A DNA stretch of 37,631 bases from an uncultured Alphaproteobacteria bacterium (GTDB lineage: Bacteria > Pseudomonadota > Alphaproteobacteria > RF32 > CAG-239), in assembly GCA_944392205.1 (NCBI GenBank), contig CALXVV010000003.1, forward strand, positions 1 through 37,631. The letters run 5' to 3'. The notes beneath the pieces are model-generated. The model was given only the letters and a program-made list of their open reading frames with translations. It did not search any database and was not told the origin of the DNA. A program made the position numbers and the translations under genes. Shown here in pieces: positions 2,325-25,973 of this stretch. Each line of letters starts with the position of its first letter. Positions within the stretch are counted from its first letter, which is position 1.

Positions 2325-3424
2325 CGTGCAGCTCCTCCGTTATTGCTCAATCCTCCGGTCATAGACGCCTCATCCAAAGGCACAAAGCCATAATGCTTCA
2401 ACCACCGAACATCAGATTCAAAGAATGTCCGCAAATCAGGAATACCATATTTCAGCATTGCCAAACGGTCCATTCCCACACCAAAGGCAAAGCCTTGATA
2501 TTCATCAGGGTCAATTCCCCCTGCCCGCAAAACATTCGGATGCACCATACCGCAGCCCAAAATTTCAAGCCAGTCATCACCGGCACCGATTTTGAGCTCG
2601 GTCTTTGTCTTTTTGCAGCCGATATCCATCTCGGCCGAGGGCTCGGTAAACGGAAAATAAGAAGGCCGATACCTAACCGGAATATCATCAAGCTCGAAGA
2701 AAGCTTTTACAAAGTCATAAAGACATCCCTTAAGATGCGCCATGGTAATATTTTTATCAATCACCAAACCCTCAACCTGGTGGAACATTGGGGTATGAGT
2801 GGCATCATAATCAGAACGATAAGTTCTGCCCGGAGCAATAATGCGGATAGGCGGTCTTTTGGCTTCCATGGTGCGAATTTGCACGGAAGATGTCTGGGTT
2901 CTGACCACATAGCTGTCATCAAAATTATCGCTTTCCGGGTTAGGGATATAGAAAGTATCCTGCATTTGCCGTGCCGGATGGTTTGCCGGAGTGTTTAAGG
3001 CATTAAAGTTGTGGAACTGGTCCTCAATATCGGGGCCTTCAGCCACCTCAAAGCCCATCTCGCCAAAGATGGCAATAACTTCCTCATAGATTTTAGAAAC
3101 AGGGTGAATTCTGCCCTGATTTTCCGGACGAATAGGCAAAGTAACGTCTATTGTTTCTCTGGCCAGTTTGGCATTAAGCTCCGCTTCGGCCAAAGATTGC
3201 CTGCGCGCATCTAAAGCGTTTTCAATTTCGCTTTTTAGGATATTCAGGCCCTTGCCCATTTCTTTCTTTTCTTCAACCGAAAGAGTTGCCAAGCCCTTCA
3301 TCAGCTCGGTAACGGAGCCTTTTTTGCCGAGCACGTTAACTCTGATATCCTCCAGAGCTTTCAAATCTTGAGCAGCGGCAATTTGCGCCAAAGTCGTTGA
3401 TTTAAGATTTTCAATATTTTCCAT
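2321..3424 (-). CDS. pheS: Phenylalanine--tRNA ligase alpha subunit
   Basis: Catalytic subunit of phenylalanyl-tRNA synthetase. The N-terminal coiled-coil region (about residues 1-90, with LGKKGSVTELMK) is followed by the class II aminoacylation core: HPARQMQDTFYI, RTQTSSVQIRTM and GRTYRSDYDATHTPMFHQVEG (motif 2 region), then GFAFGVGMDRLAMLKYGIPDLR near the C-terminus (motif 3). The 367-residue length is slightly long for the family. I prefer the ATG at 3424: it has a GGTGG element 5 nt upstream and gives the family-like start MENIENLKS. An in-frame ATG at 3436 has no ribosome-binding site. It forms a coupled pair with pheT through a 4-nt overlap and lies downstream of rplT, separated by a hairpin and a candidate promoter. 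Confidence 0.95.
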   Translation of the reverse strand: MENIENLKSTTLAQIAAAQDLKALEDIRVNVLGKKGSVTELMKGLATLSVEEKKEMGKGLNILKSEIENALDARRQSLAEAELNAKLARETIDVTLPIRPENQGRIHPVSKIYEEVIAIFGEMGFEVAEGPDIEDQFHNFNALNTPANHPARQMQDTFYIPNPESDNFDDSYVVRTQTSSVQIRTMEAKRPPIRIIAPGRTYRSDYDATHTPMFHQVEGLVIDKNITMAHLKGCLYDFVKAFFELDDIPVRYRPSYFPFTEPSAEMDIGCKKTKTELKIGAGDDWLEILGCGMVHPNVLRAGGIDPDEYQGFAFGVGMDRLAMLKYGIPDLRTFFESDVRWLKHYGFVPLDEASMTGGLSNNGGAAR

Positions 3425-3444
3425 TTTTTCCACCATGATTTTAA

Positions 3445-3474
3445 AATATAAGAGAGTCTGACCTGATTGCTCAA
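3445..3474 (-). promoter_or_regulatory. Candidate sigma70-type promoter for pheST
   Basis: On the minus strand, TTGAGC (3469-3474) and TATATT (3445-3450) are separated by 18 bp. Transcription would start near 3438, just upstream of the preferred pheS start at 3424 and too close to use the ATG at 3436. The element is embedded in the hairpin at 3451-3485. Pattern match only. Confidence 0.35.
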
Positions 3475-3485
3475 GCAGACTCTCT
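3451..3485 (-). terminator. Hairpin between rplT and pheS
   Basis: A perfect 10-bp inverted repeat (AGAGAGTCTG at 3451-3460, CAGACTCTCT at 3476-3485) with a 15-nt loop lies 25 nt after the rplT stop. The minus-strand RNA continues TATATTTT, a mediocre U tract, so it may act as a partial terminator or attenuator. I saw no Phe-rich leader peptide. Confidence 0.5.
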
Positions 3486-3509
3486 AAATTTTAATTTAAT
3501 TTCCAGCAA

Positions 3510-3869
3510 TTATTTGCTTAAAGAAGCCTTGACCTGGTCAACCAGTTTAGCGAAGGTTTCGGGCTCTTTAACAGCGATATCGGCCAACACTTTACGATCA
3601 AGCTCAATACCAGCTTTGGCGAGCCCGTTCATAAATCGAGAATAGGTCATATCGTGCAAGCGGGTAGCAGCGTTGATACGTTGGATCCACAAAGCACGGA
3701 AATTTCTTTTTTTAGCTCTTCTGTCGCGGTAAGCATATTGCAAAGCCTTTTCGACTTTTTCAACAGCAACTCTAAAGACATTATTATTGCGTCCTCTGTA
3801 GCCTTTAGCCATAGAGATAATTTTTTTATGACGCGCGTGAGCGGTAACACCTCTTTTAATACGTGACAT
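3510..3869 (-). CDS. rplT: 50S ribosomal protein L20
   Basis: Large-subunit protein that binds 23S rRNA early in assembly. The 119-residue product shows the L20 signature throughout: [34 protein letters not shown], then [21 protein letters not shown] and [19 protein letters not shown]. The length is that of the family. An AGGGGAAG ribosome-binding site precedes the ATG. It follows rpmI by 12 nt in the conserved rpmI-rplT order. In many bacteria L20 represses its own operon through the mRNA leader; the structured leader upstream of rpmI is a possible site for that here. Confidence 0.98.
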
Positions 3870-24167: not shown

Positions 24168-24205
24168 AATAAAGAAGAAAAAACGACCATTAACAATAAA
24201 CGATG

Positions 24206-24359
24206 TTCAAAAATCACCGTTTTTGTACCAATGCTGCCACTATAAACTAAAAGTTTTTTTCGTCAACAGCAAAATGATTAAAGGTGTAAATAAATATAGC
24301 GTTAGAAAGAAAATGTGTATCTTTGTGTATCGTTATCTACAAAAACGGTGATTTTTGAA
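24206..24359. repeat. Invertible promoter element (inverton) with 22-bp inverted repeats
   Basis: Left repeat 24206-24227 and right repeat 24338-24359 are perfect 22-bp reverse complements bounding 110 bp. Each repeat has arms TTCAAAAA and TTTTTGTA (near-palindromic, one mismatch) around the asymmetric core TCACCG, the architecture of a serine-recombinase crossover site with a non-palindromic central AC. Inverted orientation of two such sites gives inversion. The enclosed DNA has no gene but carries one promoter-like element. It sits between a serine recombinase and a paralogue that heads a glycan operon. A simple terminator is unlikely given the 110-bp loop. Inversion itself has not been observed. 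Confidence 0.85.
24239..24266 (-). promoter_or_regulatory. Sigma70-like promoter inside the invertible segment
   Basis: On the minus strand TTGACG (24261-24266) and TATAGT (24239-24244) are separated by 16 bp. It is the best promoter match I found between the two recombinase genes. As sequenced it reads toward the invertase, with a leader of about 105 nt. Inverted, it would read into the plus-strand operon, with a leader of about 40 nt before the ATG at 24375. No comparable plus-strand promoter is visible in the segment. Confidence 0.65.
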
Positions 24360-24374
24360 GATATGAGATAAGCT

Positions 24375-25007: not shown

Positions 25008-25973
25008 ATGAAAACAATAGTAGTAACAGGAGGAACGGGTTTTTTAGGTTCCAATTTATGTATCCGCCTAATAAATGAGGGCAATCGCATCATATGTGTT
25101 GATAACAACTACACCGGACGTATGCAAAACGTGGCTGAGATTATAAATAATCCGAATTTTCGTTTTATTAAGCACGATATCTGTGAACCTTTAGATGTTA
25201 ATGATGAAAAAATAGACCAGATTTACAATATGGCCTGCCCGGCATCTCCTCCGGCCTATCAGGGAAATTATTCAATAAAGACGACCAAGACTTGCGTATT
25301 TGGTGCAATTAATATGCTTGAATTGGCCAAGAAGCATAGTGCCACCATCTTGCAAACTTCCACCTCTGAAGTTTACGGAGAACCGCTTGTTCACCCGCAA
25401 GTAGAAACTTATCGCGGCAATGTCAATCCCATCGGAATTCGTGCTTGCTATGATGAAGGCAAGCGTTGTGCTGAAAGTTTATTTTTTGACTATCATCGTC
25501 ATGAAGGAGTTGATATTAAGGTTATCCGTATTTTCAACACCTATGGCCCCAAGATGGATCCCAACGATGGCCGTGTAGTTTCCAACTTCATTTGCCAAGC
25601 ATTAAGTGGACAAGATATCACCATTTATGGCGACGGCTCACAAACGCGCTCATTTTGCTATGTTGATGACTTAATTGAGGCCATGATTCGTATGATGAAT
25701 TCAGAAAAAGGCTTCACTGGTCCGGTCAACACAGGCAATCCCGGAGAGTTTACCATCAAAGAATTAGCAGAGAAGGTTACCGCTAAGATTGGAGGAAGCT
25801 CAAAGATTGTCTATAAAGATTTGCCCAAAGACGACCCCACCCAAAGGCGTCCGGATATTACCTTAGCAAGAACTAAACTTGGCTGGGAACCAAAGGTTAA
25901 GTTAGATGAAGGCCTAGACAAAACAATAGAATATTTCAAGACCCAAATAAATTTATTTAAGAAAGCGGAGTAG
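25008..25973 (+). CDS. uxs: UDP-glucuronate decarboxylase (UDP-xylose synthase)
   Basis: NAD-dependent short-chain dehydrogenase-type enzyme converting UDP-glucuronate to UDP-xylose. The 321-residue protein has [10 protein letters not shown] (residues 8-17) for NAD binding. UXS-specific features are [13 protein letters not shown], the TSTSEVYG strand (117-124) and the catalytic pair Tyr148/Lys152 in [11 protein letters not shown], then [22 protein letters not shown] and [21 protein letters not shown] precedes the ATG. The next gene, starting 3 nt after the stop, makes its substrate, so the two form a pathway pair. dTDP-glucose dehydratase is the main alternative but lacks these motifs. Confidence 0.93.

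Follow-up and report, generated by a model that had tools for sequence, protein, structure and literature searches.

The window, by which we mean the whole stretch of 37,631 nucleotides analysed, comes from an uncultured alphaproteobacterium and contains two perfect inverted repeats (22/22 bp) at 24206-24227 (forward strand) and 24338-24359 (reverse strand). They enclose a spacer of 110 bp (24228-24337), which we presume to be an invertible segment. The left arm reads TTCAAAAATCACCGTTTTTGTA and the right arm is its exact reverse complement; extended to 24203-24227 and 24338-24362, the arms match at 24 of 25 positions. No other inverted repeat in the 37.6-kb window reaches 18/20 with a gap of 60-260 bp, and comparable repeats were found neither in 20 Markov shuffles of the whole window nor in 1000 shuffles of the intergenic region. 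An identical 18-bp dyad of the type CAAAAA-TCACCG-TTTTTG lies in each arm (24208-24225 and 24340-24357), and these are the two occurrences of the type in the window. The dyad centre is asymmetric, the general layout of a small serine-recombinase crossover site, and both arms are presumed to be such sites.

The site family CAWAAANNNCSKTTTWTG has three copies in the 1.38-Mb genome: the two arms, which form its one intact pair, and, on contig 9, a single relic site. The paired pattern AAANCACCGTTT-N100..130-AAACGGTGNTTT was found in 4 of the 152 genomes of the family, all from the window's genus (control matches, 0). Viral contigs contained exact matches to the site, always as lone copies without a partner, and the intergenic DNA matched no phage.

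On the reverse strand beside the left arm lies the gene of P0001 (23534-24127; 197 aa), an intact serine invertase with a Pfam Resolvase match (5e-30). Its score against the NCBIfam Mpi model PRK13413 (3.6e-77, 258.6 bits) is slightly under the curated cut-off of 272, and we therefore term it Mpi-like rather than Mpi. P0001 retains the catalytic residues R8, S10, R45, R68, R71, E124 and R125, which include the catalytic serine and the resolvase-domain arginines expected of an active small serine recombinase. Homologues at E-values of 1e-45 or better are present in 109 of the 152 family genomes. P0001 and the protein described next, P0002, give the only Pfam resolvase matches in the genome. P0001 is the presumed catalyst of inversion.

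P0002 (24375-24965, forward strand; 196 aa) starts 15 bp past the right arm, and its gene leads the glycan operon. It is a paralogue of P0001 (32% identity; 1.2e-30 against PRK13413) with a helix-turn-helix (HTH) part, and the best structural matches of its predicted model (mean pLDDT 83) are serine recombinases. P0002 keeps Ser10 and has lost R8, the Arg45 region, R68 and R71 (both arginines of SRLGR) and E124; it does not have the residues of an active small serine recombinase, and Ser10 too is missing from most of its orthologues. Pairs that include the window's own P0002 had saturated synonymous sites, and dN/dS values for its orthologue group, where computable, were 0.07-0.16, which argues that the group is maintained under purifying selection. 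A locus search with the P0002 sequence alone returned no related loci and a search with an alignment query returned 17; no P0002 relative was found on viral contigs. The original prediction had placed two perfect 22-bp inverted repeats, 110 bp apart, in the gap that separates a serine recombinase gene from the start of a glycan operon. The repeats are indeed there, at full identity and absent from shuffles, and the genes on either side are as stated. The prediction did not notice, however, that the leading gene of the operon encodes a second serine-recombinase-like protein, which is catalytically dead.

The sugar genes themselves begin at 25008 and extend to 35092 on the forward strand. Pfam matches in this stretch comprise an NAD-dependent epimerase/dehydratase, a member of the UDP-glucose/GDP-mannose dehydrogenase family, a second epimerase, GT8, GT8-DUF4422, a cytidylyltransferase, NeuB and GT2. 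This combination of sugar-nucleotide, glycosyltransferase, cytidylyltransferase and NeuB-like genes suggests that the operon product is a surface glycan with a nonulosonic acid. Because the genes are closely spaced on the same strand, they are probably co-transcribed.

A candidate promoter, TTGACG-N16-TATAGT, lies inside the spacer (24239-24266, reverse strand) and is directed at P0001 as assembled. Taken alone, a single consensus match is weak evidence, as the region contains two such matches against 1.8 expected. The pattern TTGNNN-N16-TANNNT is, in turn, present at the equivalent position in 15/15 aligned segments from relatives and the paralogue, versus 10% of shuffled segments; these segments are related, so the figure speaks for conservation and not for 15 independent events. 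By its predicted direction the promoter would leave the glycan operon OFF in the assembled orientation and drive the invertase gene instead. P0001 would bind both arms, cut at the arm centres and reverse the 110-bp spacer, and the promoter, once flipped, would drive P0002 together with the nonulosonic-acid-type glycan genes (ON).

Counterparts of the spacer in related genomes occur in both orientations. Segments of G014 and G020 share 125 of 131 positions (95%) only as reverse complements, with a forward alignment score at shuffle level, while both flanks align directly; the inversion was confirmed on records L110 and L111. Compared with the segments of G015, G019 and G021, too, that of G020 is inverted. 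In the window's genus, G032 has two paralogous invertons in opposite orientations between co-linear flanks; compared with the invertons of G033 and G034, one of the two is reversed. The homologous segment on contig 9 of the window's own genome (see below) also runs opposite to that of the window. The arms are degenerate (14/18) in several relatives, which counts against the inverton reading. G024 (L048), whose orientation is ambiguous, was left out of the orientation evidence. Records L116 and L118, considered as a strain pair, are 99.98% identical over 5.8 kb and share one orientation, so that they are uninformative on inversion; L116 (CALUPF010000024.1) is filed under a Gastranaerophilales MAG and L118 is a contig of an alphaproteobacterial MAG, and L116 is probably mis-binned.

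One could also read the arms as a pair of operators around a fixed divergent promoter that never inverts, occupied by a dimeric DNA-binding protein such as P0001, P0002 or some other regulator. The arms do lie beside the start regions of a divergent gene pair in which both members encode HTH proteins, and in all intact invertase-adjacent pairs with a callable direction the promoter faces the invertase. This single orientation means that the evidence for flipping in the invertase-adjacent arrangement comes from contig breaks in G026 and G032. Contigs of these two genomes end inside the arms, both on the invertase side and on the dead-gene side. Contigs C6/C9 and C10/C11 of G032 share exactly 127 identical bases that end at an arm core, as expected of assembly-graph branching, and an identical 114-bp stretch (segment plus arm) is joined to two different flanks. 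Arms so short should not break an assembly that has a single junction; hence we infer that these ends are signs of populations of mixed orientation, although the many similar cassettes of G032 (see below) could also cause some of the breaks. Together with counterparts that are flipped between and within genomes, with exchange at the arms, the breaks make a non-inverting operator pair unlikely.

Overall, we consider it highly probable that 24206-24359 is an invertible promoter flipped by the adjacent Mpi-like P0001, OFF as assembled and ON in the other orientation. For the window copy, present on one contig in one orientation, inversion, its catalysis by P0001 and transcription that follows orientation are deduced from sequence comparison. 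The original prediction of a promoter inverton controlling a glycan operon thus gains support from the position-conserved promoter, the flipped relatives and the adjacent intact Mpi-like invertase. It had proposed looking for the flipped segment in related genomes, where flipped counterparts were found (G014 versus G020, G032 versus G033 and G034), and its remark that it was aware of no such inverton described in this lineage agrees with our searches, which found no description of such switches in Alphaproteobacteria in the open-access literature.

A second question is whether the switch, inherited from active ancestors, is now frozen in this species. The relic on contig 9 of the window's own genome (G000; 3168-3686; L055) seems to have met this fate: it consists of a truncated P0002-like dead-recombinase gene and one remaining arm. 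Its homologous segment and promoter are in the opposite orientation to those of the window and face the dead-recombinase gene, and a GDP-mannose-dehydratase gene and other sugar genes lie on the same strand as that gene. The relic is probably a locked-ON remnant of the same switch. The existence of the relic, the single intact pair in the genome and the one orientation in the assembly would all fit a frozen switch. Unlike the relic, however, the window locus has arms that are perfect over 22 bp and an intact invertase, and we regard freezing as very unlikely. The preferred reading remains a working promoter inverton.

G032 contains 16 further dispersed cassettes of 165 bp with the same arm core as the window, AAACCACCGTTT, and identical spacing. 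They are located on contigs 1-13 (L193-L216; e.g. L194:1988-2152, L207:2007-2171 and L212:1977-2141) and, in the 11 cases where the gene is readable, are followed at about 50 bp by a gene for a secreted cysteine-rich protein. By promoter direction most cassettes are OFF and two are ON (L212 and L207, the latter assigned by eye). Near-identical units with inverted ends, dispersed in this way, would on their own resemble a repeat element, and the arms of the window might by extension be terminal repeats of a small mobile element rather than of an inverton. Yet the readable units precede one gene family at about 50 bp, their interiors are found both ways round relative to conserved flanks, and the window's genome has one intact unit; a mobile element is scarcely credible as an explanation. 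The G032 cassettes look like a genome-wide phase-variable set of surface proteins in the window's genus.

The dead invertase leader is the unusual part of the switch. We found no description of such leaders in the open-access literature. A tree built from 78 sequences has a single branch (support 100/100) between the 44 dead and the 34 active copies. Copies had been labelled by their catalytic residues; what the tree adds is that the losses of these residues cluster together. Dead copies are without the Arg45 region. Inverted repeats of at least 16/18 lie upstream of 16 of 41 dead genes versus 6 of 335 control genes. The end of a dead gene frequently runs a few bases into the following gene, and the downstream neighbours of dead genes are chiefly glycan genes, with some exceptions. 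Between dead and active proteins the HTH part is about 27-39% identical and the catalytic part about 22-24%. The HTH of a dead protein is no closer to that of its partner invertase than to those of others, and since the likeness is not partner-specific, binding of the dead protein to the same arms as its partner is unsupported. Invertons without a dead gene also occur, so the dead gene is dispensable for inversion.

With less confidence than for the switch itself, we infer that P0002, made only when the promoter is ON, binds DNA and regulates either the operon or the switching. A broader and more tentative idea, which we hold to be possible rather than probable, is that the dead paralogues are dedicated recombinase-derived regulators. 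Their synthesis would be limited to the state in which the promoter faces the operon, and as catalytically silent DNA-binding dimers they would lock the ON state by blocking or poisoning the invertase or, alternatively, coordinate which surface locus is expressed; the invertase would be made only in OFF. If true, a dead paralogue made when ON and an invertase made only when OFF would form a two-sided memory switch. Two further observations concern gene content. Proteins of about 330 aa are encoded directly after a dead recombinase at L087:5380-6375, L088:6809-7816 and L152:639-1634; they resemble three members of the downstream set that match many HTH families, apparently with a repeated resolvase-type HTH. 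At L040:4862-7161 (G074 contig 17) an intact invertase gene has an inverted-repeat segment and a dead paralogue on either side.

In the capsule loci of Bacteroides fragilis, the first gene encodes an UpxY-type antiterminator. The window operon differs from loci with such leaders in that its leader is a dead invertase paralogue. UpxY has been linked to exopolysaccharide (PMC11892184). B. fragilis Mpi acts on invertible capsule promoters (Coyne et al. 2003, as described in PMC4747536), and the present system resembles it in having a serine invertase from the same model family and in promoter inversion before surface-polysaccharide loci. The dispersed G032 sites further suggest that in relatives of the window, as with Mpi, sites are apparently served in trans. 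The differences are an alphaproteobacterial host, a score for P0001 under the Mpi model cut-off, and a switch that adjoins its invertase and is the one intact copy in its genome. The Salmonella Hin/hix flagellar switch also combines a serine invertase, dyad-symmetric sites (in hix with a 2-bp central overlap) and a promoter on the flipping segment; Hin, however, is encoded inside a segment of ~1 kb and uses a Fis-bound enhancer (PMC2427008, PMC4817059), whereas the window segment is 110 bp long with the invertase gene outside it. Outside Bacteroidota, the gut bacterium Akkermansia muciniphila likewise has an invertible element beside a capsule locus, present in both orientations and linked to capsule state (PMC13343947). 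Its repeat motif is different (CGGATT..AATCCG), and no recombinase is named in that paper.

Mpi-type promoter inversion is already known, and what appears to be new here is the lineage and the dead invertase leader. With this locus, promoter inversion in the Mpi-like manner would reach an uncultured family of alphaproteobacteria whose genomes are small. The locus also brings to light catalytically dead invertases as a family whose members usually stand first in glycan operons, often after an inverton. How a recombinase comes to regulate switches of its own kind is a testable question, for which the relatives offer natural material: flipped segments, a putatively locked relic and, in one genome, 16 dispersed cassettes. 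Elsewhere in the wider system, at L099:3188-10255 (G103 contig 5), two intact invertases flank DNA methyltransferase-like and helicase-like genes, with inverted repeats upstream of the invertases; the arrangement may represent an invertible promoter at a locus that resembles a restriction or defence system.
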